The notes beneath the pieces are model-generated. The model made no database searches. It had not been told where the DNA came from and saw only the letters and a program-made list of their open reading frames with translations. From Beroe ovata (taxonomy: Eukaryota; Ctenophora; Nuda; Beroida; Beroidae): a stretch of DNA of 43,759 bases. Where the stretch lies: positions 3,720 to 47,478 of the forward strand of contig CAMPET010000322.1 in the NCBI GenBank assembly GCA_946803715.1, read 5' to 3'. A program made the position numbers and the translations under genes. Positions 3,723 through 37,202 of this stretch are shown here, piece by piece. Each line of letters begins with the position of its first letter. The first letter of the stretch is position 1.

Positions 3723-3731
3723 TCTTGCTAT

Positions 3732-3740
3732 GTCTAGTCA
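3732..3740 (-). promoter_or_regulatory. UGA CUAG stop-codon readthrough motif between gag and pol
   Basis: The gag ORF ends at UGA (3740-3738), followed directly by CUA GAC. UGA CUAG is the best-characterised leaky stop context in animal cells and viruses. Pol continues in the same frame with no further stop. That the motif works here is inference from its exact match and from the frame relation. Confidence 0.75.
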
Positions 3741-4577: not shown

Positions 4578-4591
4578 AGTTGAGGAAGTAA

Positions 4592-4758
4592 TGTAAGGAA
4601 GTTAAGAACACGGTAGAAGCAGTGACACACCGGTTGCAATATATAGAACTTCCTAAAGGCAAATAGTATTAGCAATAAATAACATTAGGTAATTCAATAA
4701 ATTAAATGATTATTTAAATATCAATCATCACATAGAAATTGGGGGTGAACCCTAATAC
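4592..4758 (-). repeat. gypsy 5' LTR, clipped at an assembly gap
   Basis: Same sequence as 1-167 with no difference noticed by eye. The last two bases expected (CA on the plus strand, the TG end of the LTR) are replaced by the N at 4759 and unrelated sequence. Just inside the LTR the minus strand reads TTACTTCCTCAACT; this does not begin TGG and so is not a standard tRNA primer-binding site. Confidence 0.92.
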
Positions 4759-5965: not shown

Positions 5966-6010
5966 TGCAAAGTGAATTACGACCATCGTTAACTTTTCTT
6001 CAGTCAGTTT

Positions 6011-17173: not shown

Positions 17174-19043
17174 CTATAGTGGGTTCAAGATGCTGGTATG
17201 TGGGTTCGGAGAGGAAGTGAACGCACTGAACGGGGTCGTTAGCAGAGGAGGTGGTGTTGCTGAAATGTTTTTTGATCAGCTGGGAACATTTTGATAGTGA
17301 GAATCAGGCTTTAAATTTATTCTTGATCTTTTATGTAAAAAAATGGGATTGATCTGTTCCTGAATTAACATGATATTCACATTCAAAGAATGAAAAACAA
17401 ACTCACATATCTCCGCAAAACCGTCCTTCGTGCAGCCTAGACACCTACACTTGGCTATGTACGGTATGTCCATTGTCTGTAATAGATATAGAAGAGTGGT
17501 GTCAGAGAGTGGCAAGTGGTGTCAGTGATTTGTGAGTGGTGTCAGCAAGTAATGATTAGTCACTGCTACTCACATCAGAGTATTGAAGAGTGGTGTTGTG
17601 GTTAACACAAGTAACTGCTGCACTGGGGTAATACTTAATGATGGGCGTACAGCACTGACATATCGTCTCTAGCCGGCCCTACGAGTGCAGAGGTGAGGAT
17701 AATATGTGGATCCAACAATCACGATCATAGCACGATCAGTTTGGTTTAATTGATTTGATAGTCAATTTTGATAGTTAATTTTGATAGTTTAATTGATAAT
17801 GGTCAGTACCTATGGTCAGTACCTATGTGGACCTAACACTGTCCGCGCATTTAATATTTCGTGGCCTTTCTTATATTCTAGGACAACCAATTCATTGTCA
17901 TGGCAACTCACGTAAATGTTTCTGTTCTGCTGCTTCTTGCACACACCACCAATATCAGCACAAACTCTTTTCACAAACGGCGAATCCTGTGAAAGATAAC
18001 CAGGTTTTAACTCTTTACAAGGACATGTTGACAACATAGCTGATATAGTACTTAATACGCAACCAATCAACCACAATTAGTCCACCTCGCAGCTCTGTTG
18101 CCTCACCGTGATGCATGCCCTGGTATCATTCCGCAAGGTGACATACTCCGGATCCATCGCCAGGTGTTCACACCTCACCCCCGATTGAGGACTAATCTCG
18201 GGTGTGCGTGTGGGTGTGATTGTAGTTGGGCGGGGTGTGCTTGTTGCAGGTGCCGTTGATGGGGATTGGGGTGGTGCTGAGCAGAGCGTCAACATTGGCT
18301 GTGTGCCAGGGAAGGTGGAGTGGCGGTCAAAGAAGGTGAAAAGGTTTGGTGTCAGGTAGTCTTCGTTTGTCAGTAACACGCCGTGGTTGGGGGCACCGAA
18401 TTTCAGCCAGTTTACCACCACAGAGTACATTGGAATCTGGGAGAGGATTTGGCGAATCACAACTCATCAGGGGGTGGATAAAGAAAAACCCACTTGATGA
18501 ATATCAGTGATTAGTTTCGTTTCTATGTAACTTCACATATTATACAACATCCATACCTACCTGTATTCGAGTGAATCGCAGTCTATCCTTTGTGGAGTTG
18601 AAAGCGTCTGGTTCTATCTCATCTCGGAGTATATTCTCCAATCCACTCCATGTGCCAGTAGTTTCGTTAAATGGCTCGAGGAGCTTTGTGAAAAGATAAT
18701 TAGTACCTACATTATAAAATTGTGTCCAAAGTAGCTGTGATCAGAGTTCAATAAAACTGCAAAGTCTAACCTGATGAAGGATGAATGATCTTTCAGACTC
18801 AGGATTCAATTGTCTTGTTTCCCACTGTAAGATAGACCAAGCTTTGTTATACTTCATCTTAGGACTGGTTGATAGTCTTCTCTAATCTATTTGTAGGGTA
18901 TATTATACTTATCAATATTAATCTTACCTCCAGTATCGACCGTTTTCCATGCTCTGTCCCGTTATCAACGAGCGAGCTATCGACATATAGGTCCAGCCAC
19001 GAGTTAGAAGGGTATTCGTCATGCCCCCGTCGGATTACATATT
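17174..19043 (-). CDS. part 7: last DNRLRE module and Cys-rich tail (exons 38-44)
   Basis: Exons 18928-19043, 18771-18857, 18561-18683, 18107-18436, 17912-17986, 17407-17476, 17174-17259. The module is clear: [26 protein letters not shown], then [12 protein letters not shown], then [19 protein letters not shown] and TQPMLTLC. A Pro/Thr linker ([15 protein letters not shown]) follows. The end has two readings. If exon 41 is not spliced at the donor GTGAGG (18106-18101), the protein stops at 18079-18077 after QQSCEVD. If it is spliced, exons 42-44 join in phase and add [14 protein letters not shown], then IAKCRCLGC, then a Pro/Thr tail ending at the stop 17176-17174. The Cys pattern of the longer form recalls a C-terminal cystine knot. 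Confidence 0.6.
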
Positions 19044-22000
19044 CTGAAAGAGACAAGACTTGAAATGTATGATGAAACCAATCTTGATATAATATGAGAA
19101 TATGGAGAAAATGGATCTTCAAATCAAGAACCTAACTCACAAGGGTTATAATCCCCATAATATATTATGGGTTCTTGTTGTATTGTTTTTTGGAACAGTG
19201 ATTTCAGATGTGCTGATCTTTCCTGTAACTCTCATGTGAGAACGAATCTAACAATCTTAGCATGTTCAGTTATACTTCACTGCCAAGTCGACATGCATCG
19301 CGGTCACAATGTTTGACAATAAACAATTAATAGATCTATTGATTGCAATTGTGCTAAGAGAGGTAGAAAAGATAATCTACTTGATTTGGAATCAAAAACT
19401 TGTTCTATACATTGTACATCTGAGTGATAATCAGTGCTTGTTATACACAACTCTAATACTCGTTTTTGCTTTCCACAATCGGAGCTGTGTATTTGTGAAC
19501 TATATATTACACTGGTGGACGACTGCAGCTTCTCCAGCTACAGCCACCCTGACAGAACACTCATATTGATGGAGTGGAGTGAAGCGATCAGTCGTGGACT
19601 GCTCCTCATCCTGGACTCAGGATCTGAGACGGACTTTGTGTTGTCGTGTACTGATGGCAATGTACGGTGTCACAGGGCCGTGCTGATGGCACAGGGAGGT
19701 GTTCTTGCTAAGAAGGTGGAGGAAAGACTAGCGGATAATGTTTCCCGACTTGACATTTCCAGACTTCACATTAACCAGAAGACGGCTATGCTCATCCTAC
19801 AGGTGCTGTACGGTGGTCTGAAGGAGCAGTTTAAGGAGGGAACCGCCCTTCAGTTCCTGCAGTTTGCACATCATTTCGATGTCCATTGGATGAAACATCA
19901 ACTAATGAAGAAGTTTGGCGATGTTTTATCCCCGAAAAACTGCCTTCAATTGTATGGGAGTCCTGAAGTCAAGCAGTCAACCCAACTGACGCAAATTATT
20001 GAGGAGTATTACTCTTCGCAATTCTCCCAAATCGTCGAGCAAGGTAATTTATCCTCCGCATCACTGGAGGGAGTTACCATGGTAACGAAACTCGCAGGGC
20101 AACAAGATTCATTCAACTGTTTCAAACTTTTCAGCGATATAGTCAACTGGTTACTGGCAAACGATGAGAACACCAAGTCTGCTGCGCAGCTCCTTGGCGA
20201 ATTACCCCTCAAGAAGATTGAAGTTTCCAAGCTCCAGAATGAAGTTTATGACATGATCTTCAACCTGCTTATCATAGGAAAAGGTGATGTTCTCACTCAG
20301 GAGGATAAGGTGAAGTTGTCCGGACTGTATCAGGCTGCAGTGAGAGACTCTCAACAAGTCCCTCAGAAGTCAGCTGAACCGGAGGTAAAGGTTGAAATAC
20401 TTGATCCGGAGGTCATGGAGAAGAAGACGAAGAATGGGAAGGGAGAATTGGAGAATCGACCTGAGACCGTAGTTGAAACATCTACCAAAAAATCAGTTAT
20501 TAACGGGGATTGCAATGATGATGGGAGGAAACAGTGGACTGCAGGGGGTCAGACGGTTAGATGGGATATCCCAGTACCGGGCAAAGAGAGTATCATCTCA
20601 CACATTCAATCCGGGGAGTGGCCCAATATGGAGTACCCTGCTGTGAGGAGCATCATCAGCCACGAGAATATTCTGGAAACAGAATTCGTGGCTGTGGAGA
20701 GCATTTTCCTGTGGATTGCAGCAGACAACTATAGAAAGCAGCACTGTGAAGATCTTCTGAGAGCGTGCCGATTTTCAGATGTCTGTCCGGTTTATATCCG
20801 GTGTGTCCTGACAACATTTGTGACCGAGAAGATGGTTGGATCTGCCCGCCTTGCGAACAACATCCTCCGATCCCCGTCCGGACCAAGATCCGGATCTGCG
20901 GCTCCAGGGCGTCTTGCTGGTGTCGTGGACGATGTGCCGTTGTCAGTTCAGAGACTCCAGCTGGGTGAGCATGCCCTCACTGCTAAATGCTCAAAGTGTG
21001 GCTCACGGTGTCAAGTGGTGCTCAGGGTGTCACGATCGCTGCCCACAGCAGTGGTGTCACAACTACCCTGTATCAACTGTGGACCTCAGCGGATAGTTCA
21101 CACTGCCTGTGCATCTACACTGACACCAGATGTCTTCCCGAGTATGCATCTTCTTCCCTTCCATCACCTTTCAAGATTACTGTCAAGTATGGATGATATG
21201 AGGATATATCTGTTCAAGCTCCAGCAATCGTGATGGAATTTAAGAACTCTCAAATAGCTCTAGAAACTTTTTATAATTGTATTGAACAATAGAACAAGCG
21301 TCAAGTAGGATTAAGTACATTCAGTAGGAGGAATGAGGACATGAACGAGTAGTCATGATTTTGTAAATGACAGAATGGACTTTTAAGTTTGAATACCTAT
21401 CAAGACCATTTTTTTGTTCTTTTGTAGTGTCCATGCAGGAAGATCGATTTATTTTTTCGCAGTAATTCATGATATTGCTATAAACTCAACTTTTGTCTGA
21501 TAGGTTGATAATTCATTGCGCCACGCGCTTACCTTCTTCATATTCGTCAAGATTGGCATACAAAAGGGCACGGTACTTGTTACCATCCTCGTCTACCCCA
21601 ACCTTTAAACCATTCATGTTCCTGTTACCACTGTGAGATTCAGTCACGGTAAGATCCATATCCAGAGGGATCTTTACCTGCAATGATTATGCGTCATTGC
21701 AGACCTCTCCTTTTGCCGATGTCGATGCAGCAATAGGACAGCAATTATAACACAACAATAGGACAACAGTAACGAAAAATAGTGTGAAATAATTGTATCC
21801 CTACCGCGGTAGTTCCAGGAGAACATGTTTTGATGACATGTTTTTTGTAGCAGACCTCCACAATTGGAGTCCTGTCTTCACTTGGAATAGAAACATTTTC
21901 GTAGTTGTAATACCTGTGATGACAAATGAATATAATGTGTTTTAGTGAGTGGGTAATTAATCACTTAAACTCTATTGAATAAAATGAGGACAGGATCTAC

Positions 22001-24516
22001 AGCTGGTCTCCTACCTAAAAGGCTTGCCATCAGTATATTCCGGGATATTGTCAGCATACTCGTTCACCAGTGCGACTCCATAGTTGTCCTTGTAATACTC
22101 CCGTCCTCGGAGGTCGAACCAGTACCGGATTGTAGTTAAGAATTCAGCAGAGAGTGGCTTGTCAAAGTCCGGCTGTTGCCGCAGCACCCTAAGTGCATCT
22201 GTTGTGTTCTGAGGGTGATATATTTTATACTGACCCAATAAAACTCTGGGAAACAAAGGAGTGCAGATAAATGATCTCAGTGTTACCTCCAAGTTTGTGT
22301 CAGATGTCAACATTCCAGATGCAGTAGATATACTACCCCATGTTTTCTTTATTGGTCTGAATGCTGAGCGTTGGGGAATCCACTGACCCGGATAGCCCGA
22401 CACATCCGCTGCTTCCATGTGTATGACTGAGTCGTACACTATCAGGTCCTGAAATGTAACGATGATTATAAGCTTTTTATTTGAATGATTCAGACCAGAC
22501 TATCAACAACTGCTAACTTTAAAACTAGGCAACATGCTAAACTTAATTAAGATATTATAATACCGTGATAACCAAATTGATAAGCGATTATAGATTTACC
22601 TCATTTATCTCCTGTGTCAAGTCTGTAAAATCAAACGTCATTAAGGATATTTTTAAGCCAGAGTCTGCTTCTTTCCCAGATACAAGGAACTTCTGAAATC
22701 CCCTGTCACTATCGTAAGGAGCTTCCATGACGTTCTTTCCAGCTCGTCTAGATTCCAATTTAAATAATGCTCTGTGTCCCCCTTAGAATCGAAAAAGTGT
22801 CAAGATTATGAAATGCGTGACAATTCAACGCACATTTGCTGTAAGTATAATTGTTAAATTATGTGTACCTTACTCTTAAATAAAGTTGTGATACCTGGAG
22901 GAATAGTGCACGGTTGTCCAGGAGGCAAAATTGGTGGAGAGGAAGTGAAAGATGGAGTAGTTGTGCTGGATGAACTCGGTGTTGATGTGGAAGATGGAGT
23001 AGTAGAGCTGGATGAACTTGTTGTTGATGTGGAAGATGGAGTAGTGGAGCTAGATGAACTTGTTGTGGAAGATGGAGTNNNACATAGTTGTCTGTAGTTG
23101 AGACGTGTTATCTTCCGATCTAGTGGTTGTGCTGGATGTATTTGATGTGGACGATGGAGTAGTTGTGCTGGATGAACTTGTTGTGGAAGATGGAGTAGTG
23201 GAGCTGGATGAACTTGTTGTTGTTGTGGAAGATTGAGTAGTGGAGCTGGATGAACTTGTTGTTGATGTGGAAGATGGAGAAGTTGTGCTTGTTGTTGAGA
23301 ATGGACTAGTAGATGTTATTGAAGACGATGTAGATGTTATTGTTGTTGGTCCACTGCTTGATGATGATTTCGTTGTCGTAATCACTGAAAATTCGGCGAT
23401 CAATGTTCTTGATCGCATAGGTAACGTTGTTTGATCTTGGTTTACTCATATAGGTATAATCGTTCGCCCATATCTTTATGAACCTGACGTTGTACTGGTG
23501 TGGATTGGACTTGTCGTGAAAGTTGTTGAAGTTGATGATGTTATTGGTGGACTGGTAGAAGTACTTGTCCCTGGAGCGATGAAGTCTTGTAGTTTTTTAA
23601 AATTTTGATTATGCTTACAAGTTTGAATAAACTATTGCAGACTTCTCTGAAGAATTTTTTGATGATATACACTACCTACCGACACAAGGTGGTTCAACGC
23701 AAGTTCCCTCTTCGTTCTCAACCAGTCCTTCGGGGCAGGCACATTGTTCAAAACACTCTCCCGTTGTGTAATTTTTACACGTCTTCTCTCCACAGATGTC
23801 ATGACATGCAGGTCCACACTCAACGTAGTGCTTCGGCCACTCGCACATAACCTCTGGATAGAAAAATCAGATGCATCGACATTTTATCCCTCTCCTTGTA
23901 TACTGTATAGATGACATGTATCCGAATCCATATCAGAATTTGCATAGATGATTGGTAATCACTCACGACATTCATGAGTCTTAATCCTCCAGCTGATTAT
24001 AATCCCCTGATTTGAACACTGTTTTGCGTATGTCTCAATGGCCTCACAGTAACACATACAGTCCCCTCCCATGTCACACCCACACGCATCAAACACACAA
24101 TTCTGGTAGTATGGGATTGGCGGAACTGCGATGTGACAACTTGAGAATAGGTCGTCGTTCAGGATGCTGAAATAGCGAAGAATTGCTATTTGTGATTGGG
24201 AAATCGTGATATTATTAGACGATAGCTGGTCATGCGTCTCTTTTATAAGACGGTATCTAGAGCATGACTTACGAGCACATGGTTTCTGCAAATGTCTTCC
24301 TAAGAGGATGGATATCACAGGGCGTCTGGAGATTCTTTTCTACATCAGGACAGGACTCCAGCATTTTCCAGCTGTTAGCGAAGGGGTAAGGTGTGGACTC
24401 TGTGATACCTGTCTGAGACAGAAAGTCGTCCTGTTTGTTCTGGTTGTAGTTGCCACAAAGTCCGTGAACCTTGCCTACCCATCCCGGGCTCAGTCTCACG
24501 TAAACCTGTGAGTGTT

Positions 24517-24574
<58 letters not shown>

Positions 24575-27500
24575 TGTGTGTGTGTGAGTGCGATGGTTAC
24601 TTTGATTATGCAGACTCTGTGGATCGATTATGTCTGCCTAAGTTATATGGAGACGAAAACTGGATTGGGCATTTGATTGCAGCTGATTTGTGATGAATGC
24701 TATGATGTTGTTATAGACCTGTGTTCCCCCATTCCATAGCACTCTCAGTCCATGAGACCATCCGACCATGACATAGAAACCAACACGGTCAACCAGGACA
24801 CCTGGGCGTGGTAGTATAATGGACTTTGCTATAATAAGTAATCGCCGTAAAAACCAATACAATTTTCAATGACACTTCCTAGTTAGAATAACACTTTGTT
24901 CTGGAGCATCCCCCTCAACATCTCTTTACCCACCTACAGTACTGTCTTTGAAGGGCAGTCCTAGGCTTTTCTCCGCGTTTCCCACTATCCTAGTTACACG
25001 TGTATCCTTTACCAGGTTATAGGTAACGGTGTGGGAATTCTGTGTGATTGTCACCGTCACGCTCTTCGTACACGTGACACCTGAAGAACCACATGCCTCG
25101 TTCTGAGAGCTAACCTGTGGTGGGAGACTATAGTTAAGAGGGGGTCCTGTTTGATCTAGTAGAATCTAGTGTTTTGATGGTAGACTACACTAAGCTTGAT
25201 AGAATCTCCATGATTCCATGATTTATACTTACTGTGAAAGAATTCCCGTCAACGGATTCAGTGGATTGTGTGAGAGTGTACCCACATGATCCCTGGAACT
25301 CGTACATTTTCCCATCAAATGTCCGGTAGTGAGGGTCCCCGGAAGCGAAACATTCACCAGGGCAGATAGCGTCCTCGCACGTGACCGCACCTTCGTGGCA
25401 CGTGCACAGATTGCAGTCCTGGGTGCGAGTATCACGTGCTCGTTATTGCTTATTTTGATTGGAGACGGCCTTCAATCTAGTTTAAATGGTGATAATTTTG
25501 TGATAACGGTATTCCACATTATCTTACTCGCTTGATAGTCTGCCCAGATGCTAGGGGTTGTCCATTGTATGAGCAAGGTGCATTCCTTACGATTTCCGTA
25601 CCACTAAGAGGCATCAACTGGGGCAGGTGACATATGTTGGTGCACGTCACTATTCCCGCTTTACACTGACATTCCTCACATGATACTGTGAACCGTTCAT
25701 TTGCTTCCTGAAATAGAAATGCTAAAACCAAATAAAAATATCTTTCTATGTGAGAGTTGGTGCAGTTTTTAGAGTTATTTGAAAACTTCATAAATCAATG
25801 TGTTTCATTCGACTCTATTTAGATTGATTTATGATACCTCCCACCTTCAATAATCCGTATGCTAACCAGCTCACCCTATGTTTTAGGTCCCTATGACTAT
25901 ACACATGCAAAGCTATGTACTCACGTAGAGAGATCCTTTGTACGTGCACGGACAAGCAGCAGGTTCAACACACGCTCCGTCCAACTCTACCAGCCCCTGC
26001 GGAGATACCCTCACGCGTGAGATAGTCACGTGTTATGATGAGTCACGTGATTCACACAGGAGTCACGTGTTATGATGAATCACGTGATTCACACAGGAGT
26101 CACTTGTTATGATGAATCACGTGATTCACACAGGAGTCACGTGTTATGATGAGTCACGTGATTCACACAGGAGTCACGTGTTATGATGAGTCACGTCATT
26201 CACAGCAAGAACTGTAATAGGATGATGGATAAACCACAGCAACAGCGATCTTGACACAGGTCAGTCACTTCTTCCATCATCTTTAAATTACTCTCAAATT
26301 TCCTCTCAACGTTATCTCGAGCAGCAAATATTTTTTCTCTCTTTTACTTGTTCATCTACTCACATTCCTTATCGACACTACGTATCACAATTAAATTTGA
26401 GCCTGACGATGTCGTTGAACGACGAAATTGATCGCAATTAAAAAGACGCATTTTCATTTGTAAACAGAGTCAAGAGATAATTTACTATCTCTCATCGTAC
26501 TCACATTCTGACAAGCGCAACCCTGCACACAACTGCCATCACAGTTTGTGTGGGTAGCCAGCTGACCACATGTCATTGCACACGTGTTACACAGCTCGAA
26601 CTCTTGTCCAGGTATGGGGCAGATAACAGCTGCGAAATGTCAGGTGCTGTCATCAGCACGTGATTAGTCGTGATTAGCACGTGATAAGTCGTGCTGTCAT
26701 AGATGTTGTCACGGTGTTAGAATTTGTCATGGTGATAGAGGTTGTCAGAGTTCTGACGATTGTCATAGTGATAACGGTTGTCATAGCGATTATTGAAGGT
26801 GTCATGCTGTCATGAATCATACTTACGACAGTTTGTTGACTGTCGCCAGGCTAGTGGTTTATCCATGTGCTCAGCACACACATCTTCGTAGTGTGACAGA
26901 GCCTCACAGTAGCACTGTCTATTGTTACCCACACAGTGTGTCATAGACTTGACACATACCTGGAAAAAAGCTTGCGGTGGGAACCGGGTCTTTTAGTAGA
27001 GATAAGGGGTGTGGCTTGATCAGTGTGAGTTTTGAAATAGACTGAAGATAACCTGTTACAGGTCTCAACAATTGGACATGGGTATAGTACCTTTTTTCCA
27101 TTTTTGTTCGGACTGAGTTTGGATTGAGTTATTCTTGAGTCGGATAAATCTCAGCAAAAGTACTTATGGCAGACAGTGTTACATACTTGACACCCCTGAC
27201 ACCTCTATAACTTTTGAATAACTCACACTGTAGTACTCATTGGGTGGAACTATGCTGTGACACCTCGTCAACTCCTCATCTTGGTATAGCACTCGACACA
27301 TCTCTTCTGCTTGGTACTCAGCTGCCTGTGCACGTGTGTTGCGATGGTAACGTGTCAATATTATAGTAGCACGTGCTTCAGCTATCATGATTTTTCATGA
27401 ATCGTTAACGGTTAGGCACTCACCACTGTTACATCTTTAGTAAACCAGGCGTCGTCTTGACAACCACTGTTCTCCCAACTCTTTATGAATGTTTCTATAC

Positions 27501-30500
27501 CAGAGCTTATCATCTGGTTAGCTGCCGTGAAGTCGTTCGACCTGCAAGTTAAGATTGTGTGTGTGTCTGTTTGTATGAGTCTGTTTGTGTGAGTGTATGT
27601 GCTCAGATTCTTTAGTTCATTGCCAAAATTGCATGTGGCGGGTGGCCTGATCAGCATCTCGTCATCTGTTTCTCGAAAAGATAAACATCGTTTCCTAGGT
27701 ATTTTGGGCCGTTTAACCTCTAAATTGCTCCCCTGGTGTGTTACCGCTACACAGTACACATCGGTCTAGCCGTCAGCCATTTCAATATTACCTTAGATCA
27801 TCAAAGTTCCCGCAGAGCCCACAGGTTTTTGACTGTAGTTGTTGTGGGAAGGCCAGCACAATGTCCCCAGTAGATGTCCATTGCACCTGTAAAACCACAA
27901 TATCATACTTGTTTGGAGCTCAGGAGATGAAAATGCGTAGCAAACGCATATTGTGTTGTAAGCCACTATCTCGAATCTGGGCCCGCTAGCACAGATTTTT
28001 CCATATCTTATGATTCGTAATATAATTGACTGGTAAAATGTTCCATCACCTGGGTATCACTTGTAGATGAGTGAAGACTGGTTAGTCTGACCACGCCCCA
28101 ACCTGGCCTCTCAACTGTCACGTGACTATTACCAAACGGTATGGTCTTCGTCTCTGGTAGGATTCAGAGGTTATAGGGTTAAATTGGGTTATAGGGTATT
28201 AATAGGGCAATAGAATCTCTCCTATATGTGCTATGGTGTCAGAATCATATTCTAGACGTGTGATAAGCATTGCTTATAGACACAATATGACTCACCATTG
28301 TAAACCCCAGTAATGGTATCAGTCACGGTGATGTACACATCGTTATCAATGGTAACAGTCCATGTTCCTATGGTAACAGTTACCGCTCGTGCAGGGCAGT
28401 GGGAAGCGGAGGAACACGATTCTAGGTCTCTGTGGGTATTCCAGAGATGTAATTTCTTGGAAAATTGCCAAATTCTAGTCCGAAAGTCTCAGCTAAAACG
28501 GGAAGTTTGAGCTCACCTCTGTGCTGATATGGTGAATTGTGGTTCATCTGGTATGACGTTGTTGACAGAGCTGCACTGTGTAGCTAATGTGTAGTGGCAC
28601 GAGCTGAAGAACGAGTAGAACTTCTTGTCGAATGTTCTGTAGAAACCTTGACCTGCGTCAGTTCAAACTCAGGACTTACTAGTTCAGAGTTCAGTACTTG
28701 TTAGTATCAAGTTGTGATCGCTGGCACTGGTTTCCTTGTCAAACACAGTCTAACAAACCTGTAAGATAGCAATGTCCGGGGCAGGGTCTTTCCTTGCAGT
28801 TCCACTTCCCATACTCACACGTGCTGCGCAGATGTTATAATGGACAATGTTTCGACTTGGAATGAGTTACATATTGCGATGGTTTTTTCAATAACCTCTA
28901 GGCTTTCATTTTGTATTCACTCAGATCCTGGAATCTTATTTTGAACCCAGCACGGTTTTTAATTTCCTGAATTACCAAGTTCTGCAGGGTGTGTCCCTAG
29001 TTTCTCCCGACACGTAGACAGTGTTGTCATGGAGACACGTGCAATCTGCAGCCTCTACGCAGTCTCCATACGCATCGCGTACCTGATTAGGTGAGGGGGT
29101 AAAGAGCGGTTCTCCTGATCCCTCAAGAATAACTTAATTGCGAATAATGCAGTGTAGTTATCGTAGATGGGGGGTGGAGGGGGCAATGCCATATCCTGAC
29201 ACTTGGATACTCCTGGTTTCCATGACAACAGCAGGTACCGCAGTCACCATGACAGTAGCTTCGCGGATCATTAACCATGTAGCTTCATTGCAACGTCACA
29301 TACTGTGTAGCAGTACTACTACCGTAACATGCACCTTTACCATAGCAGAAGCGCAAAATCACCTAGTACTTCGTTACCATGACAAAAGCTGACGGTCACT
29401 TTGACATACCTTGTTACCATGACAGTAGCACCCATCTGACTCATGAGCACAGTCCAGGTTAAGATGGTAGTTGGAGCAAGTCTGTTCACAACCAGGGTAT
29501 CTCGCGTGGTACTCTGATCCACTGGGACATGAATCTGCAGGCGAAGGACATATTATGTGATGCCAACAATTGGACATCATTTCTTTACTAGATGATTTTA
29601 CTAGTAAAGGTATAGTCTTGGACCGCTTAGGCAACCGCAAAGGTTCGTTTATACAGTTCCATTCCTAAGCTTACATGACTTCTTGCAGGTTTTCCCTAAC
29701 TTACAAAACTGTGAACAAGGCGTGGCCGGCATCCACTCAGTATCCATGCGACAGTCGTCAGTGAGCGCTGCTTTGAGAGCGACGCACGTGCATTTTAACA
29801 GTTCATGGTCGTTGTCACAGCTACACACAGCGGATATGCACATGTTGTACATGTCACGTGATCCGGCACACTGACTCTCATAATCCTGCAGTGGGGAGAG
29901 GGTGGAGTCAGGGGTGAATGAATCAAGTCCACCCTGTTTATAGGTTGACGAGATGAAGTCCCACTATTTCCACTATCCTCTCCAGTATACCTTGATTATC
30001 TGACAATCATGTCGAGCTATAGCTAGTCTCTCCTCTGAGCAGGCTGGTGGTACCATGGCAACGCTTGTACACGTGTGCTGGAATAATATGAACACAATGT
30101 GAGAATTGCACGTGTCAGTTGTCACATGTAAGTGAACTAGTATAGAACAGGAAGTGAGATGCCATGCTGGTGGTACCATGGCAACGCTTGTACACGTGTA
30201 CATTATATGAACACAATATGTGAGAATTGCACGTGTCAGTTGTCACATGTGAGTGAACTAGTATACAAGAAGTGAGAAGTGCCTTTCGGCTAGATTACTG
30301 CATATGATTGAATGCTGTAGCCAAATAGTTGGAGTAGCCCATTAGTTAGATATTATCGCTTAACATTGAGATTTGCTTTTCCCGACCCTTGATATACCCT
30401 TGATATATAGTTCTCCAATCTTCTGACAACAGACAATTCATTAATCAGTTTCATACTGTACTCGCCAACAAGTCTCATGGGTGAGGTTTTATGGTAGCTG

Positions 30501-33500
30501 TCAATTCGTGACTGTTGTTTGGGACTATAAATGGCTATTATAAATGCTGACACCGTGTTGACAATCAAACCAGGAAGATGAATCCGACCCATTATAAGTA
30601 GCTATTTCATTATCAACTGTGTTTGACATTGATATGTTTGAAGTTTGTAGAACTTATTGTTTAGTGTCATGAGAACGGTGACACTCACATCCACATTCCA
30701 GCTCTGCCCGACCACGCCCACATCGTCAGTCACGCCCCAGTAGGCATCCCTCAGGTCGTTGTCAGGGTTACCGTCATAGTCACCACACATACCGCACGTG
30801 TGTGACTCCATAGCTGGGGGAACTGTTACCACTAGAATACCAGCCCCATCCCAACTCACACTGATCTCTGAGACAGGGTATAGTTTTTGAGTCACACTTT
30901 CATGATCGTTTAAGATAGTTAGATTGAATCCCATGTTAACTGTTAAGGTAAGTTTTAAGGTACGTTAAGTTTGACTTATATATCAACTAACCTCCCACGT
31001 GAAGGTAAAGGCTGTACCCTGCGGTAACCATGACGACACTCCCAAAACTATGCTGCCCCTTCACATCCCTTACCACAGTTTCCTTGACCTGAGCGAGGGG
31101 GAATCTTTCATGGAATCATTTAAATGTGTCGCAGGAATTGCGGATTGCAGCAGAGAGTGCGGCATGTCGTGCTGTAATTGGGTGAGGCAGCGGGAAGCTT
31201 GTGATGGCATAACTGGAATCAGCGTCTTAGTTTAGGATGACACGTCGCACTTTTTATGTTTTAAGCTCTTAAAGTTAAATATTCTGCGACACTTAAATAT
31301 TTATTCACTTCTTAACTCGCTGTCAAATAACTCGCATCGCAATGTTCTAGCACCCTCATATTGCAGTGACCTTTGCAGCGTCTTGCAGCGCCACTTTAAG
31401 ACTGCGTGTTTCTGTCTTTGAGTGGTGCAGTGTCTTACCGTAATATGATCTTGAACCCTGACAGAGAACTGATTTTCCCTCCTGATGTAGATAGTGTAGG
31501 TGTCCGCTACCCTCATTTCTATCATGTCTACACGTGGCAAGTGGTCTGCAGATTGTTGTCCCATATGTGTGATCACCTGGCAAAGTGGTATCATAGTGGA
31601 AGCGTTTGACATATATTAGGTGACCGATAACTCTCCCGAAGAAGAGATCTTAGAGCCAGGCCTGATCTATCCTATCTTCATGACGATACCGCAGTAGATG
31701 ATTGTGGAAAGTCCAAGCCATGTGCCTATATATACCTGGAAAGAGTGTGCTGCACTGCAATCCTTAGCTATGACATAGCTGCATGCCCCAGAGTAATCAT
31801 ACTGGTGTCCGTCAAATGTCACGAATCTGCGGTCAGCATAGAGCGAGCAAACACCTGCATTGGGGGGTAACCTGGTGTGAACCATCACTTATAGCACCGC
31901 GCCCTAAATCACTTAGCAACGCACCCTAAATCACTTAGCAACGCCAAGCATCACTTCGAATCACTTAAATAATCTGACTTCCGCACAGGAAATATAAACT
32001 GATGAACTGTGATGACTGATGATGTACCATGTCTGCGTTATGCAATGAACTCAATTTCATAATGATGTCATTTTCCTAGTTATTAGGGAACTCTAACTCA
32101 AGCCATTGGGTCGCATAAGCTGCACGGATCTTGCGTTCACCATATATAGTCATTATAGAATTCGCACTTTGCTTAGATGATTTACACATGCGATAGGGTT
32201 AAAAGCCTTTCGATCCGATACTATAATATCTAGGGAGAATTTCCAGGCTCGTTTTTTTCTGAATTCCATATTCAACGATTCAGTTATTAAACTAAGATAG
32301 GTAACTTTTTCATTTTTATAACGCACAACGGCTCGCAAACGTCCAATAATCAACCCCGTTTCGGTCACTCAATTGTCGCGCGTCAGTGCGTTACCTGGAC
32401 AGTCGAAGGAATGACACTCCCATATCCCATCCACACAGGAGCAATGACTGCACCCCGAGCTCGTGTCCTTATCGACTCCACTGACGCAGCCCGTTCCTAG
32501 AGATAATATGTAGATTTATGGGGAGGGCCAGGGTTATAATTCTATCGGGAGGGGCCTTGTTTCATGTCGTAAGTACTTAAGTAGATTTATCGGCCGTTAA
32601 TATCAGTGAACACGAAGTATTAAACCGGTAAATATAGTATGTTACGAATATTTGACTTGGAATACGTAGGTTTATGCCGTGAATATCTTATTCGTGTAGC
32701 TATTGTACCGTGTTGAAGTGGTGCAGATCTTTTGATTCTCGATCTGAGCATTATCGAGTCGATATGCTTCTTGCTGTCCTCCGTCATTGCTCCTATTATC
32801 GATGGGGGAATTCACTAGATTTCAAACTTCGCATTAGAAAGATAAACGATATGTTCAACGTCGCATACTCAACCAAAATGACAGTCAAATCACGGTTGAA
32901 TGTCATGTTTGGAATATAAATTTTGGGTTGATATTGACCTGCTGATTTCTTCCGTTGGCACCTCTGCCCGGTGAAGTGTGGCGGGCAGGAGCACACGTCA
33001 GGCTCCTCACAATGTCCTCCGTTCTCACACTCAGGCTTACACACAGCTGGGGAGACGCGATGCATGATTGAGTCAACTCGGAACTAAAAAGTTGATAATT
33101 ATAGGCAGGATTAATATCGTAGTCTTTTAGAGCAGCAATATAACATTATGTATCCCTGGGAAAGGAGGTTTGCCAATTCATATTACCGTTATTGCACCTT
33201 TTCCCCTCCCATCCTCGACAGCACTCCTGTCTCTCCACTTTCACTCTCTTCAGAACAATTACCGGAGTCTCGATAACTGATCTCCTGTCAATTACAGAGC
33301 TGGGGTAGGCCAAGCAGGGAGACGAATAATATACTTCTTCTCTAGTTGGGATCTACAGATACTATAGGGACTACAGATACTTCTCGAGTTGGGAGTTGCT
33401 AGTGATAAGCTACTTCTCGAGTTGGGAGTTGCTAAATGCTAGTGATACTAGCTTTCTCGAGTTGGGAACTGCTAGTGGTACTAGTTCTCGAGTTGGGAGC

Positions 33501-33908
33501 ATCAGCAAGAGCTATAGTTACCTGATTCTCCTACAGGGAACTGAAACTCCTAGCCCCTCCTGACACCTATCTATGACCAGTTTCTTCACACTTCTCTTTT
33601 CCTTGGTCACTGTCTCTTCCATCCGGTCCTCTACTCTCTGACACCAGTGTCCATTGGTAACGCCCCTCTTCCTCAGGATGGGTACTATTTCCATGGGGAT
33701 GGAAACCAGTTCTGGCTGCGTGTCAGCATGGGTCGTAACAGCACTGCCATGGGGATTGGGGAAATGGTATTGTAATTGTGTTAATGGAAAAGGCGAATAT
33801 ATTCTCTCTTCTTCCATCGATTGAAAACAGCTCTATCGAGGACAGCGAAACTCTTGAGTGCCTCTTTTCATACCTGTTGGACAAAACGAATGCTAGTAGA
33901 ACTAGCAT
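17174..33908 (-). CDS. large secreted EMI-EGF-VWC-(VWD-C8-TIL)x3-mucin-DNRLRE protein (whole gene)
   Basis: A reconstructed gene of about 44 exons, about 2,070 residues, probably a gel- or matrix-forming extracellular glycoprotein of the mucin/VWF/hemocytin type. Each proposed exon has an AG acceptor and a GT donor, and the reading frame is preserved across all joins except where a gap falls in exon 32. Approximate residues: signal peptide 1-18, EMI 42-122, EGF 124-158, VWC-like 160-193, VWD1 194-371, C8/TIL to 560, VWD2 560-715, C8/TIL to 898, VWC-like 899-985, VWD3 985-1160, C8/TIL to 1319, Ser/Thr-rich 1320-1511, DNRLRE modules 1513-1930, Cys-rich tail to 2070. Exons are listed in the part entries. 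The join across 21533-19043, where a BTB gene is nested, and the last three exons are the least certain. The segment right of 19 kb could instead be a separate gene's 3' part. Confidence 0.8.
19569..21233 (+). CDS. BTB/POZ-BACK protein, single exon, nested in the intron of the opposite-strand gene
   Basis: A 554-residue protein from ATG 19569 ([10 protein letters not shown]). The same frame is open 45 codons further up to an ATG at 19434, but that part looks unlike coding sequence. The BTB domain (about 15-115) has [20 protein letters not shown], the usual D-x-x-F/V-H-x-x-L core. A BACK-like helical region spans about 120-230 and a second one about 350-410 ([23 protein letters not shown]). 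Near 470-510 are CSKCGSRC and CINCG...HTAC, which could bind zinc. BTB-BACK proteins often act as Cullin-3 substrate adaptors or protein-interaction hubs. No Kelch, MATH or zinc-finger array is present. The gene lies wholly between exons 37 and 38 of the large minus-strand gene, and lack of introns fits a retrocopy. Confidence 0.82.
   Translation: MEWSEAISRGLLLILDSGSETDFVLSCTDGNVRCHRAVLMAQGGVLAKKVEERLADNVSRLDISRLHINQKTAMLILQVLYGGLKEQFKEGTALQFLQFAHHFDVHWMKHQLMKKFGDVLSPKNCLQLYGSPEVKQSTQLTQIIEEYYSSQFSQIVEQGNLSSASLEGVTMVTKLAGQQDSFNCFKLFSDIVNWLLANDENTKSAAQLLGELPLKKIEVSKLQNEVYDMIFNLLIIGKGDVLTQEDKVKLSGLYQAAVRDSQQVPQKSAEPEVKVEILDPEVMEKKTKNGKGELENRPETVVETSTKKSVINGDCNDDGRKQWTAGGQTVRWDIPVPGKESIISHIQSGEWPNMEYPAVRSIISHENILETEFVAVESIFLWIAADNYRKQHCEDLLRACRFSDVCPVYIRCVLTTFVTEKMVGSARLANNILRSPSGPRSGSAAPGRLAGVVDDVPLSVQRLQLGEHALTAKCSKCGSRCQVVLRVSRSLPTAVVSQLPCINCGPQRIVHTACASTLTPDVFPSMHLLPFHHLSRLLSSMDDMRIYLFKLQQS
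21533..22781 (-). CDS. part 6: DNRLRE (CBM96-like) module 1 and start of module 2 (exons 33-37)
   Basis: Exons 22600-22781, 22287-22448, 22015-22208, 21805-21913, 21533-21677. Module 1 follows the DNRLRE/CBM96 outline: a strand with [10 protein letters not shown], then [13 protein letters not shown], then a KTWGSI segment, then [12 protein letters not shown] with [10 protein letters not shown], and a closing TPIVEVCYK strand. These correspond to the family's FDL, A-L-L, tW, W-N-GNYGLLL and P-L-V positions. Module 2 begins in exon 37 (MDLTVTES...[10 protein letters not shown]...RALLYANL) but is cut off: the intron that follows contains the BTB gene and the next exon starts a fresh module. DNRLRE domains bind polysaccharide in bacteria and algae; binding here is inference. 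The assignment rests on pattern, not on a profile search. Confidence 0.6.
22895..23570 (-). CDS. part 5: Ser/Thr-rich mucin-type region (exons 31-32)
   Basis: Exons 23484-23570 and 22895-23384. They encode almost only Ser, Thr and Pro, for example repeats of [14 protein letters not shown], the pattern of O-glycosylated mucin stalks, between the last TIL and the first DNRLRE module. The DNA is a degenerate tandem array with unit near 48 bp. Exon 32 contains the NNN gap at 23079-23081 and a 34-bp adapter-like sequence at 23088-23121, so the residues around [10 protein letters not shown] are not genuine and the repeat number is unknown. Confidence 0.8.
23079..23081. other. assembly gap (NNN) in mucin repeat
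   Basis: Three Ns interrupt the Ser/Thr-coding repeat. Contig ends in such repeats are expected; true gap size is unknown. Confidence 0.9.
23088..23121. other. degenerate Illumina TruSeq adapter remnant (contamination)
   Basis: This stretch matches the reverse form of the TruSeq read-2 adapter at 28 of 34 aligned positions by hand count, including TCTTCCGATCT and GAGACGTGT. It lies seven bases from the NNN gap and breaks the otherwise regular Ser/Thr repeat. It is best read as untrimmed adapter with sequencing errors built into a contig end. Confidence 0.8.
23680..25707 (-). CDS. part 4: VWC-like region and third VWD-C8-TIL assembly (exons 24-30)
   Basis: Exons 25528-25707, 25233-25418, 24934-25114, 24719-24828, 24273-24505, 23967-24166, 23680-23853. 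Exon 24 and the start of exon 25 are Cys-rich and VWC-like ([32 protein letters not shown]). VWD3 opens with [20 protein letters not shown] and closes with [17 protein letters not shown]: the first Cys of the usual CGLCG is His. C8 has [22 protein letters not shown]3 has [14 protein letters not shown]...[10 protein letters not shown]. The donor of exon 27 (GTCTAT) is weak, but the join restores [12 protein letters not shown], as expected for VWD. The intron before exon 28 ends in a CA repeat in place of a normal pyrimidine tract. Confidence 0.83.
24511..24587. repeat. (GT)n microsatellite
   Basis: An almost pure GT run with a few TTT interruptions. On the minus strand it is a CA tract directly upstream of the acceptor of exon 28 at 24505, where a pyrimidine tract would be expected. 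Confidence 0.95.
25925..28652 (-). CDS. part 3: second VWD-C8-TIL assembly (exons 15-23)
   Basis: Exons 28517-28652, 28296-28429, 28050-28153, 27792-27886, 27424-27541, 27227-27325, 26827-26959, 26505-26629, 25925-25996. VWD2 opens with [19 protein letters not shown] and closes with [11 protein letters not shown]8 is spread over exons 19-21 ([41 protein letters not shown]). TIL2 is [18 protein letters not shown]...CVQGCACQN, and the short exon 23 ([17 protein letters not shown]) closes it. All joins keep phase. The intron between exons 22 and 23 contains the 37-bp minisatellite at 26024-26205. Confidence 0.85.
26024..26205. repeat. 37-bp minisatellite, five copies, with CACGTG and TGAGTCA sites
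   Basis: Unit starts at 26024, 26061, 26098, 26135 and 26172, spaced exactly 37 bp. Each has variants of AGTCACGTG, TTATGATG, RTCACGTGATTCACACAGG. It lies in an intron of the large minus-strand gene. Most units hold two CACGTG palindromes and a TGAGTCA or TGAATCA. Confidence 0.92.
28759..31854 (-). CDS. part 2: first VWD-C8-TIL assembly (exons 6-14)
   Basis: Exons 31736-31854, 31439-31576, 30992-31088, 30689-30867, 29991-30077, 29705-29885, 29410-29534, 28976-29082, 28759-28823. VWD1 opens with [20 protein letters not shown] and closes with [15 protein letters not shown], equivalent to the CGLCG and calcium-binding loop of VWF D domains. C8 follows ([14 protein letters not shown], then CISAVCSC...CTCVAL), then a TIL domain ([18 protein letters not shown]...GCYCHGNK). 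Exons 13-14 finish it with [14 protein letters not shown] and [10 protein letters not shown]. Part of exon 10 and its intron are duplicated nearby at 30166-30290. VWD assemblies form disulfide-linked multimers. Confidence 0.85.
30042..30290. repeat. tandem duplication of about 125 bp including part of exon 10
   Basis: The block starting GCTGGTGGTACCATGGCAAC recurs at about 30165, followed in both copies by CGTGTCAGTTGTCACATG and GAACTAGTATA. The first 36 bases are exon 10 coding sequence. The second copy has lost the CAG acceptor and cannot act as an exon. Confidence 0.85.
32395..33908 (-). CDS. part 1: signal peptide, EMI, EGF, VWC-like (exons 1-5)
   Basis: Exons 33874-33908, 33522-33743, 33187-33299, 32939-33046, 32395-32496. 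Exon 1 starts at ATG 33908 ([11 protein letters not shown]) and joins exon 2 in phase to give a short secretory signal. The EMI domain runs from HWCQRVED to [11 protein letters not shown], with the WC start and CC-GW-G-C end of that family; EMI domains mediate multimer formation. Exon 4 encodes one EGF-like domain (CENGGHC...[12 protein letters not shown]). Exon 5 encodes a short CxxCxC VWC-like segment (CSHCSCVDG...FDCPG). The symmetric phase 1-1 exons 4 and 5 are typical of shuffled modules. No promoter element is claimed upstream of 33908. Confidence 0.82.
33360..33500. repeat. short direct repeats with CTCGAGTTGGGAGTTGCTAG
   Basis: Four imperfect copies of TTCTCGAGTTGGGA plus a GCTAGTGATACTAG tail, spaced about 30-45 bp, in intron 2 of the large gene. 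No coding role. Confidence 0.8.
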
Positions 33909-35040
33909 ACCAGTATGTGTCTTTCACCACTGCAGTTGCCTTGATTTCTGCTTGCAATATGGGCTTTGAACTGTAGTCCTGTCTCAAAGATATAATTTGG
34001 TCAATAGGACGATCAGAAGTCTAACAGATACATATTATGAAGGAGCAAAATATGGATGTTACCATCGTGTGAGGGGCATAGCGGCACTGGAGCATTCTCT
34101 TTCCAGCATTTAAAACCTCCCTCTCGCCCACTCAAATGTCGTCCTTGAACTATCGTCTATCACCTGACCCGAGTACTATGTCCTTCCCCAAACACTGGGA
34201 TTTTCATGAGGCATCTCTTGCTGTTAAAACATTGGTGAAATATTGTGTTTATTCCATAGCGCATACATCATACCGTTCCATGAATTTCTGGGATCAATGG
34301 ATGTTAGGTATTTGCTTTATCATGGCTTTTCTGAAAGAAATCTTCTCAAAGATTCGGATTAAACCTCAACCTTCCTCCGCCACCTTCCTCCGCCATCTTC
34401 CTCCGCCGCCACGGTGACCTGCTGTAAAAGAATGGGTGGGGTAATGCAGGTCCATTACTCAGCCACTGCTTACCGCTATACACCAATATATGAGCAGATG
34501 ATACTGAAATAAACTTTGCGAGGAGGCTTGAAATTTCAGATCCACGTGGTTTGAATTTCTCTCATATTGACAAAAATTCTCTGAGTTATTCTGTCTCTCT
34601 CTACAATTTGTCTTCACGTGGCACGTATTATATGCGATTTTAATTCTACAAACCCGATATTCCAATCCGTCTAGTTCCCATGGTGACAAATGCATGCTAT
34701 AGCGATATTCCAATCTGTCCCTGAAATCAACATGAAATAATTCGCTCATGGATTCAGACTGAAAATACGAGGCGTATCTGAGATTCTATTCTGTCAAAAT
34801 GTGGACACTGGAAAGTATGATAATTGCTAAAAGTATAATTCATACCGAATCGATGCGTGGATCTTTATCCATGTCTTCTTTTCGCCACCATACGGAGATG
34901 TTTCCCATTCACGCACTCGAAAATTCATCCCTACATCCGCGATTTACAACGGATAATTAACATTCTACCTGCTTCATTACATAGCTTGCTATGACGTGCA
35001 TAGCTCCGTTATATGATAGCAGCTATACCTACTAGATATT
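33909..35040. other. intergenic region between divergent genes
   Basis: Separates the start of the minus-strand VWD gene and the start of the plus-strand GPCR, so it should hold both promoters. A 96-codon minus ORF at 34459-34749 shows no family resemblance. A phrase, GATATTCCAATCYGTC, occurs twice near 34655 and 34705. No TATA box is claimed. Confidence 0.5.
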
Positions 35041-36339
35041 ATGACATCCGTTGAAGAACAAGACCTCATGCGACACATGGATATTCTCCAAGTTGCTGCC
35101 TCGCCCCTCGAGCGAGGTCTCCTGGGTACCTGGTGCTCCGTGGCTTGCATCTCCTCCGTTTGCGGGAATTGTCTCCTTCTCTACGCTATAGTCCAGCATA
35201 ACGCCGTCAAACTGGATAAGATATCCTCTGCCCTCATCAAGAACATTGCTGTTGCTGATCTGGGATATTCGCTCTACATAGCCATGACACTGGTTAGCAT
35301 TATTGCCAATGGGTGGGTCTTTGGGGATTTCATGTGCGATATGGCAAACAACATGCACCTCTTCTTCGCCATTTCTGAGATTTACCTCATTTGTGCCCTG
35401 AACATCAGTAAGCTTCACTGTCTGTGGTTCCCATTAAGGTCAAGGCTGAGAGAGGCTAGGACTGGGTATATTATTGGAGCTGCCATGTGGATGGTCGGTC
35501 CAGTCATCTATTTCCTCCCAACCTCAGTGGTAGGCAGGAAGATTGTCTTCAAGCTAGCATACTACAAATGTGAGAACTTCCTCCAAGCGCAGACTAAGCT
35601 TGTTGCCATGGTGATTCCGATATTTAATTCACTGATGTTATTGTTCCTTCCACTCTTGACAATCCTGGTGACGGTGATCATCCTTATTGGGCACATCAGG
35701 AAAGCAGCTGGTGTCAGCAAACAGAGCATCATAACACTTGTTCTCATATCCACTTCATATCTTGTATCTTATCTTCCATTTGGGATTTATCATGTCATTA
35801 CCAATGCGAAGCCCGAAATTGAAGCTCATCCAGCGATATCACTGTATTTCTACAGATTTGCCAATATGATCATTTTCCTCAACTACTCCGCCAACCCTGT
35901 TATATACGTCCTGTCGATCAAGAGTTACAAGGAATTCGTGTTGGGGTCGATGTCAAAGCTGAGGAACAGAGTCGTGACGCTAAGCCAGCCGAGCACTGAG
36001 TCATCTGGAGCCTCGTATCCCAAGACAGTGCAGGTGCGTGGGAGTCAGAAAGTGGTTAAAGTCACTGCCCTCACCAGATCTGGACGGGTTTATTCTACCA
36101 GCAGTCTGAGAGAGAAATCTGAGGGAAGCTGCATGAAGAGAGGGTCTGAAAAATCCGCAACGTCCAGGAGCACCAAGATGAATCGAAGTAGCAGGGGGAG
36201 TGGTTCAAACAAAGATGATCCTGAGTGTGCAGGTGCAAGTGTGGCCAAGAACCCATTATTCGAGGCATACAATGAGGAAGATGAGGAAGTTTTTTCCCCA
36301 AATCTGGTGCAGGATTCTGCAGACACTGGTGGGTGGTGA
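35041..36339 (+). CDS. class A (rhodopsin-like) GPCR, intronless, paralog 1
   Basis: A 432-residue seven-helix receptor in the plasma membrane. TM1 has GNCLLLY (about 42-48), TM2 AVADLGY (70-76), TM3 ends ALNISKLHCLW (119-129), TM4 AAMWMVGP, TM5 near 190-215, TM6 ISTSYLVSYLPF (236-247), TM7 NYSANPVIYV (281-290) with the NPxxY signature. Cys99 and Cys177 can form the usual TM3-ECL2 disulfide. The DRY motif is missing: SKL stands in its place. TM6 lacks the CWxP Trp. A long Ser/Lys-rich cytoplasmic tail (about 300-432) ends in an acidic cluster and could take phosphorylation. The ligand is unknown. It is about 0.9 kb from a paralog on the same strand. Confidence 0.88.
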   Translation: MTSVEEQDLMRHMDILQVAASPLERGLLGTWCSVACISSVCGNCLLLYAIVQHNAVKLDKISSALIKNIAVADLGYSLYIAMTLVSIIANGWVFGDFMCDMANNMHLFFAISEIYLICALNISKLHCLWFPLRSRLREARTGYIIGAAMWMVGPVIYFLPTSVVGRKIVFKLAYYKCENFLQAQTKLVAMVIPIFNSLMLLFLPLLTILVTVIILIGHIRKAAGVSKQSIITLVLISTSYLVSYLPFGIYHVITNAKPEIEAHPAISLYFYRFANMIIFLNYSANPVIYVLSIKSYKEFVLGSMSKLRNRVVTLSQPSTESSGASYPKTVQVRGSQKVVKVTALTRSGRVYSTSSLREKSEGSCMKRGSEKSATSRSTKMNRSSRGSGSNKDDPECAGASVAKNPLFEAYNEEDEEVFSPNLVQDSADTGGW

Positions 36340-37202
36340 TACATGAACTACATCATGTTTATTCTAGCATGATGAAGCTGGAATTTTTGACATCTTTGCA
36401 TTATTCATATTGTAAACTGCTGATTCACCATATTATTCACTTGATTCATTCTTATGATAGGGTATGATAATTTGCTATTAGGAATTATGTTTTAGGTGTT
36501 TATAAAATGAGTATTACTCCCATTTTAGTTTCCTACTTTGGCTTTAAGTAGTTTGAGGTGATTGGTGAACAATCCTACACGTGATTGAGTGATTCGCAAG
36601 ACACGGGTTACACCCAGGCTACCATTCTACCAATATAATTCATCAGCGTGATCGGCCTCAGCCTGATGATCTCTCAAGCGAAAGCTTTATCCCGTGTGAA
36701 TACAGATCTATTGATGCGTGGTGAACCCGAGAGTTACCAAGTACCACACTACAACGACATGATGATTTGAATGAAAGAGACATTGCTTACGCGTGTTATA
36801 CCAGTGACCTATAAATTTGTCTCACTTTAAGAGTACTATAAGAGTCGCACTATATGAGCTAATAAGGAGATATAAGGAGGTAGAACAGTCGTCTCCTTTT
36901 ATTTTACGGAGGTAGAAAAGTTGTGGTGTGGTGACTGATGATTGTTCCCTTACGACTAATTGCAATTGAAAGCAAATAAGCGATCTTCCATTGTTCTTCA
37001 GATGGTTCCATTCCTCGATACTCGATAGAGTCGTACTCAACAGAAAAGTATTGCTCTACTGATAAAACCCCTTTTAACATAAGTCATGCTGAGGCACCGC
37101 TCAGTATGACTAGGATTGATTAAGTTTTATTGAGTGAAGTTCTGTTCCAAATGATCCTTTGCCCGCACCCTAATTCATCCACCTATCTCCCAGGCTGATA
37201 AA
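36340..37202. other. intergenic region between the two GPCR genes
   Basis: AT-rich with only shadow ORFs. A TATAAAA-like word and AAAACCCCTTTT near 37060 precede the second receptor, but I do not claim a promoter. Confidence 0.4.

Follow-up and report, generated by a model that had tools for sequence, protein, structure and literature searches.

The window analysed here, a 43,759-nucleotide (nt) stretch of the Beroe ovata genome, is part of contig CAMPET010000322.1 (C322; genome of 77.8 Mb in 534 contigs) and carries on its minus strand, at 33908..17174, a predicted gene that reads as 44 exons and 2,140 amino acids (aa). Its 43 introns are 52 to 2489 bases long and all of them (43/43) have GT-AG borders, the exons join in phase, and the frame is open without stops on both flanks of an assembly gap (NNN, 23079-23081). 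The coordinates, the minus strand and the approximately 44 exons put forward in an initial annotation of this DNA are thus borne out, and the locus probably holds one large animal gene that encodes a secreted protein of the mucus or matrix type. The final chain is the result of manual curation and replaces an automatic one. A purpose-written gene finder, which learned codon usage from long open frames in the window and at other loci of the genome and used simple splice-site weights, recovered most of the minus-strand exons, missed some, added spurious ones and broke the chain near the gap, which lies in a Ser/Thr-rich stalk; its two passes gave 32 + 18 and 31 + 15 exons, some of them spurious. 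The inner splicing of the exon at 22448-22015 is less sure, and the finder would have removed part of it. Pfam scans of whole frames, in which stops were read as residues, returned VWD only, in one of three frames, and no family in the tail. Features of the gene are given below by their coordinates on the minus strand.

The protein starts with a hydrophobic stretch that, judged by eye, resembles a signal peptide (exon 1, 33874..33908). Exons 2 and 3 (33187..33743) encode a predicted EMI domain with six cysteines; scanned alone, the 109 residues after the start score exactly at the Pfam cut-off of 25 (PF07546, 25.0 bits, E = 3.3e-5). An EGF-like domain (32939..33046) lies behind it, with 24.8 bits for EGF_2 (PF07974, cut-off 22.1) and EGF matches among PDB sequences that span aa 107 to 158, followed by a short cysteine-rich piece resembling VWC or TILa (32395..32496; PF12714, 15.8 bits, below the cut-off of 27). 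The EMI and EGF domains named in the initial annotation are therefore both there, EMI at its cut-off and EGF_2 above it, as matches of isolated pieces; neither is listed at E ≤ 1 when the whole head of 1340 aa is scanned with Pfam.

The same scan (residues 1 to 1340) finds VWD in three stretches (263.4 bits, E = 1.1e-78), C8 in two (100.6 bits), TIL in three (43.6 bits) and VWC in three (32 bits). The first assembly, D1 (29410..31854), has two VWD exon matches in the genome search and a VWD stretch, C8-like and TIL-like parts and a CGMC motif (aa 355), with its inner borders set by eye. In D2 (25925..28652), a VWD exon match from the genome search is accompanied by a C8-like part, the best TIL stretch (aa 868 to 918) and CGLC (aa 735). 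Two VWC/E-like pieces (25365..25707) connect D2 to D3, the first recognized by eye; the best stretch for PF00093 is aa 972 to 1010. D3 (23680..25364) comprises VWD (aa 1010 to 1170), C8 (aa 1213 to 1281) with the motif DCxCxC, and TIL, and carries HGLC as well as GDPH (residue 1014), a motif that self-cleaves in some mucins. CEW in D3 was considered as the linking cysteine of mucins and dropped, the loop being shorter here; which cysteines of mucin D3 link the chains is our assumption. Since Pfam finds C8 in two stretches, the earlier claim of three complete VWD assemblies rests on two C8 matches, and it stands for VWD and TIL with three stretches each.

At E ≤ 0.001, 36 PDB sequences match the head, with FCGBP, VWF, MUC2, MUC5B and MUC5AC at the top. 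D3 alone aligns better to the second than to the third assembly of VWF (194.1 versus 134.6 bits), and in the search with the head, the best-matching stretches in MUC2 and MUC5AC are at the place of D3, the naming being by position. A search for relatives of the head yielded 1117 proteins among 3417 candidates; the 120 matches listed are mostly vertebrate FCGBP and zonadhesin, and neither PF24517 nor PF07546 was seen by eye in the Pfam annotation of these 120. Because of this composition, little can be learned from the head search about which architecture is nearest. Within an intron of this gene, at about window positions 26030 to 26220, lies a short tandem repeat with many CACGTG-like motifs.

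D3 is followed by a Ser/Thr/Pro stalk (22895..23570). It is short and interrupted by the assembly gap, and 162 of its 192 residues are Ser, Thr or Pro, which confirms the Ser/Thr stalk described before. A 42-nt repeat flanks the gap on both sides, and the two flanks are 86% alike over 142 nt. This argues for a single locus across the gap, an argument weakened by the low complexity of the sequence. The reading frame shifts by one base from one flank to the other, and therefore, the true size of the gap must differ from 3 bases.

The tail behind the stalk consists of two modules and a last, cysteine-rich block, and no Pfam family was found anywhere in it after splicing. Module 1 (21805..22781, aa 1532 to 1773), which includes the exon of uncertain inner splicing, has no match to Pfam, NCBIfam or our own profile. 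Module 2 (18239..21677, aa 1774 to 1985) matches the NCBIfam model NF033679 (DNRLRE_dom) in two stretches with E = 7.8e-8 and 32.6 bits (curated cut-off 34); the better stretch covers profile positions 65 to 163 of 164. Module 2 is split by a 2.5-kb intron (21532-19044). Its score is 23.6 bits without the first exon and 32.6 bits with it, and the first exon alone gives no match. The rise in score suggests that both sides of the intron build one domain. A BTB-BACK open reading frame (19569..21233 on the plus strand; PF00651 and PF07707 above cut-off), separate from the protein described here, nests in this intron.

A second DNRLRE profile was made from 25 actinobacterial domains (seven genomes; 25 of 39 places listed); the domains had been found via NF033679, so that the set is independent in sequences and not in discovery. 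Module 2 scores 11.8 bits on it (E = 1.2e-5), a value reached by 0 of 1000 shuffles (786 listed by HMMER), whereas module 1 scores −1.5 bits, equalled by 285 of 1000 shuffles (707 listed by HMMER). In hhalign against this narrow bacterial profile, module 1 has a probability of 0.5%. A direct comparison of the two modules gave at best 16.9 bits (E = 0.25); the lookalike NYGVALVNE versus NHGVLLTNE is no evidence of kinship. A profile of modules 1 and 2 found nothing in PDB at E ≤ 10, and the structure model of a single exon (22017-22448) was useless, with a mean predicted local distance difference test (pLDDT) score of 36.9. Exon-by-exon searches of the genome with the CBM96 and DNRLRE families failed to recover even the domain of the window; such searches miss domains that are split over exons, and therefore, their negatives say little. 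The DNRLRE search gave one weak family match at C425:4396-4575 (+), most likely due to chance (15.3 bits, E = 0.68). A bacterial DNRLRE piece scanned against the contigs of the genome had no match, nor did a phage search give one.

On sequence grounds, one DNRLRE-like domain is supported and two are not. The statement that the tail has at least two DNRLRE modules is thus not confirmed, with one NCBIfam match just below cut-off and module 1 failing every profile. In Pfam, the spliced protein matches EMI, VWD, C8 and TIL, and no match to CBM96 is found. We speak of a DNRLRE-like domain and file it neither as DNRLRE nor as CBM96, because the curated cut-offs are not reached. In the part of the literature drawn on here, CBM96 is described as a CAZy family whose founding member is a DNRLRE relative and which is named for the binding of alginate by TM6-N4, and the closest folds of TM6-N4 are said there to include entries of the TGF-beta family (PMC9971899). 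This gives two candidate functions for the domain, glycan binding or a prodomain-like role, of which glycan binding is favoured by analogy with the known use of the family.

The last block (17407..18181), absent from the initial annotation, is likely, not proven, to be a CTCK-type cystine knot. It is separated from the DNRLRE-like domain by a Thr/Pro-rich linker of about 20 residues, and its cysteines (aa 2008 to 2104) are spaced 18,10,6,15,1,0,13,20,1,2, compared to 13,10,3,14,1,0,13,15,1,2 in the CTCK of a lancelet protein (P0080) and 13,10,3,15,1,0,13,15,1,2 in that of an acorn-worm protein (P0081). A spacing pattern made from the last nine intervals, with ranges picked to admit the window block, P0080 and P0081, matched only P0080 and P0081 among 120 fetched proteins (360,481 aa and 27,499 cysteines, mostly FCGBP and zonadhesin) and occurred in 0 of 200000 shuffles of the block. 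A search of the genome with the Cys_knot family returned zero matches, controls included.

The last TIL exon finds three places in the genome, the window gene and two places on contig C198, all such counts being lower bounds. On C198, rough models describe a paralogue on the minus strand (113121-123977) and one on the plus strand (about 122459-136482), each with three VWD stretches, C8 and TIL. As predicted from these models, the gene is one of a family of at least three with a common type of head. At the front of the minus-strand paralogue, EMI (19.1 bits, cut-off 25) and EGF_2 (19.2 bits, cut-off 22.1) are both below cut-off; for the plus-strand paralogue, neither is listed in the Pfam scan, and the cysteine pattern is similar by eye. 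A clear Ser/Thr stalk is present in one of the two. The stalk of the window gene is 71% alike over 150 nt and 78% over 85 nt to that of the minus-strand paralogue, and only 25 to 40 nt align with the stretch behind D3 in the plus-strand paralogue. The minus-strand paralogue enters a run of 11,069 N (C198:101848-112916) within its stalk, and the plus-strand paralogue runs into the contig end, so that both tails are lost. When the tail exons of the minus-strand paralogue were sought past the gap (C198 95001-101847), the best match had an E value of only 14. Apart from the gene's own exons, nothing in the genome matches the tail at E ≤ 0.1. In 5.8 billion proteins, no relatives of the tail were found at E ≤ 1e-3 among 4856 candidates of about 1177 to 3745 aa, and the tail alone had none at E ≤ 10 among 6025 candidates of about 320 to 1017 aa.

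Several other genes surround this locus in the window. Two tandem frames of rhodopsin-family receptors (7tm_1, above the Pfam cut-off) lie at 35020-36339 and 37155-38282 on the plus strand, and a Sulfotransfer_2 gene (30.4 bits, cut-off 22) was roughly modelled at 43008-37920 on the minus strand; such a putatively glycan-sulfating neighbour may be coincidental. Together with VWD-C8-TIL and EMI, the receptors speak for an animal origin of the DNA. Just downstream of the gene, the start of a minus-strand gene at about 14670-14030 matches Propep_M14, the activation peptide of carboxypeptidases (28.2 bits, cut-off 22.1). Open frames of retroelements of the Ty1/copia type (5993-10633, plus strand) and the Ty3 type (372-4601, minus strand) were also found.

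Taken together, our data point toward a secreted polymer of the gel-forming mucin/SCO-spondin type that has a DNRLRE-like domain where mucins often carry D4-VWC, a reading to which we assign a probability of about 0.6. Secretion, polymer formation, glycosylation and sugar binding are properties that we infer for the protein. In this model, the tails would first pair, at an early stage of secretion, via the CTCK-like block; the D1-D2-D3 heads would then align and, helped by EMI, link the pairs by disulfides into long chains. The Ser/Thr stalk may be O-glycosylated and retain water. Beside each joint of a dimer, module 1 and one DNRLRE-like beta domain would stand in place of D4-VWC, and the latter may bind glycans, either those in the matrix of the animal itself or those of microbes or algae. 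The earlier proposal of a multimerising mucus or matrix component is well supported at the sequence level by the three VWD stretches, CGMC and CGLC, the stalk, EMI at cut-off and the CTCK-like end.

A number of observations weigh against this model. The assembly gap lies inside the stalk of a gene model that is itself predicted. The score of module 2 is 1.4 bits below the curated cut-off of NF033679 and drops to 29.9 bits if the rest of the tail, with the CTCK-like block, is included; hhalign gives module 2 a probability of 5.8% against the narrow bacterial profile, and CBM96 (PF24517) is unmatched in the spliced tail pieces at E ≤ 10. As for the CTCK-like block, the ranges of the spacing pattern were set with the window sequence in view. 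A profile of the two CTCK sequences does not find the block, giving it −0.6 bits, a score equalled by 764 of 1000 shuffles with fixed cysteines and by 213 of 1000 full shuffles. Searches of Pfam and PDB find no cystine knot in the block, and the PROSITE pattern for CTCK, in the form that we presume it to have, holds on P0080 and fails on both the window block and P0081. In the head, the second cysteine loop of mucin D3 (the CEW type, as in the fish protein P0072) seems by eye to be missing, and P0072 has CGLC in all five matches, so that a pattern of CGxC with cysteine in the first two assemblies and another residue in the third is not general.

An alternative is that two genes, a SCO-spondin- or mucin-like head and an unrelated tail gene, were fused when the repeat stalk was misassembled. 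Such an error would fit the change of frame at the NNN, the splitting of the chain at this point by the automatic passes and the fact that in the paralogues, too, the assembly fails within the stalk or behind it. However, the same 42-nt repeat lies on both sides, 86% alike over 142 nt, both halves are open toward the gap, and the tail supplies just the CTCK-like end expected for proteins of this type; we therefore regard a fusion as quite improbable. The head raises a different question, namely, whether the protein is an invertebrate fibre protein of the SCO-spondin type and not a former of mucus gels. EMI, three VWD stretches and a CTCK-like end are indeed what SCO-spondin has, but no LDL-receptor A or thrombospondin repeats are listed (in the head at E ≤ 1, or in the tail) and a mucin-like stalk is present, which makes a fibre protein unlikely.

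For the DNRLRE-like domain itself, the likeness may reflect a general beta-sandwich pattern, both modules then being lineage-specific domains. The sub-threshold score, the lack of a Pfam match, the lack of a homologue within the limits of the protein search and the low hhalign probability (5.8%) are in line with this idea. Nevertheless, two profiles built on separate sets of sequences point to the same region in the same order, and 0 of 1000 shuffles reach the score, and we consider a mere beta-sandwich likeness doubtful. It is also imaginable that the domain serves the adjoining cystine-knot dimer as a clasp, folding or holding it in the manner of a TGF-beta prodomain, and does not bind sugars, in what would still be a mucin-type polymer. 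Contrary to this idea, the sequence match is to DNRLRE, the TGF-beta propeptide family is unlisted for the tail pieces, and the Thr/Pro-rich linker parts the domain from the cystine knot; a clasp is therefore unlikely.

Mucin polymers are usually thought to hold microbes via their O-glycans and bound lectins. If the reading as a polymer with a DNRLRE-like domain holds true, a mucin-type polymer can bear a domain like a carbohydrate-binding module within its own chain, and the plans of mucins and SCO-spondin would be linked by one protein with an EMI head and a mucin stalk. At its most specific, and as a tentative idea that we deem rather unlikely, the protein would be a mucin polymer with a microbial-type polysaccharide-binding domain at each dimer joint. 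It would assemble itself into a net that uses protein domains, in addition to its glycans, to hold on to polysaccharides of bacteria or algae or to acidic glycans made by the animal. Exon shuffling could have brought a DNRLRE domain from a microbial source into the mucin. In the open-licence literature of PubMed Central, we found no paper on an animal protein in which mucin and DNRLRE are named together, and the one paper with both terms appears to be bacterial; the gene offers a concrete target for asking whether animals have DNRLRE domains and what role these play.

Among known systems, the gel-forming mucins (MUC2, MUC5AC, MUC5B and Saccoglossus P0081) share with the window protein three N-terminal VWD assemblies, CGxC in D1 and D2, a Ser/Thr/Pro stalk and a CTCK-like end. 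As described in passages of one article (PMC9169620), these mucins have three VWD assemblies, a Pro/Thr/Ser-rich region and CTCK, and "often" a fourth assembly; CTCK links two chains in the endoplasmic reticulum, acidic conditions align the N termini, and disulfides in D3 give rise to polymers. The window protein differs by EMI and EGF in front and by its tail, in which Pfam lists no D4 or VWC behind the stalk and module 1 and the DNRLRE-like domain are present instead. Since the fourth assembly is described as "often" present, we do not hold its absence to be disqualifying. The acorn-worm mucin P0081 has CGLC, CGLC and EGLC in D1 to D3 and shares DCxCxC in the C8 of D3 with the window protein, and the lancelet protein P0080 has two such motifs only, KGLC and CGLC.

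SCO-spondin, for which the relevant part of another article (PMC8487547) gives one N-terminal EMI, three VWD-TIL assemblies and a C-terminal CTCK, resembles the window protein in all three respects, with the reservation that EMI is at cut-off and on an isolated piece here and that the end is CTCK-like. In zebrafish, according to the same part, the Reissner fibre fails to form in a mutant of the SCO-spondin EMI domain. The window protein keeps these parts in this order and has a Ser/Thr stalk and a DNRLRE-like domain in addition, and because LDL-receptor A and thrombospondin repeats are unlisted in it, we do not call it SCO-spondin. FCGBP and zonadhesin contain the best-scoring VWD assemblies by sequence, and GDPH of D3 aligns within the CxASGDPHY stretch of FCGBP; their VWD arrays are longer (six matching stretches in one FCGBP chain), in contrast to three assemblies, a stalk and a different tail in the window protein. 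The DNRLRE and CBM96 domains of bacteria and archaea, finally, are resembled by module 2, which matches NF033679 in two stretches with agreement from our own profile; the window domain differs in scoring below cut-off, in having no CBM96 match and in its animal, mucin-like context. The initial annotation knew of no described animal protein with the domain order of the whole chain; for the head, this claim is too strong in view of SCO-spondin and gel-forming mucins, and the DNRLRE-like part is what remains unusual. In sum, the building plan is familiar, and what is new is one sub-threshold DNRLRE-like domain and its position.
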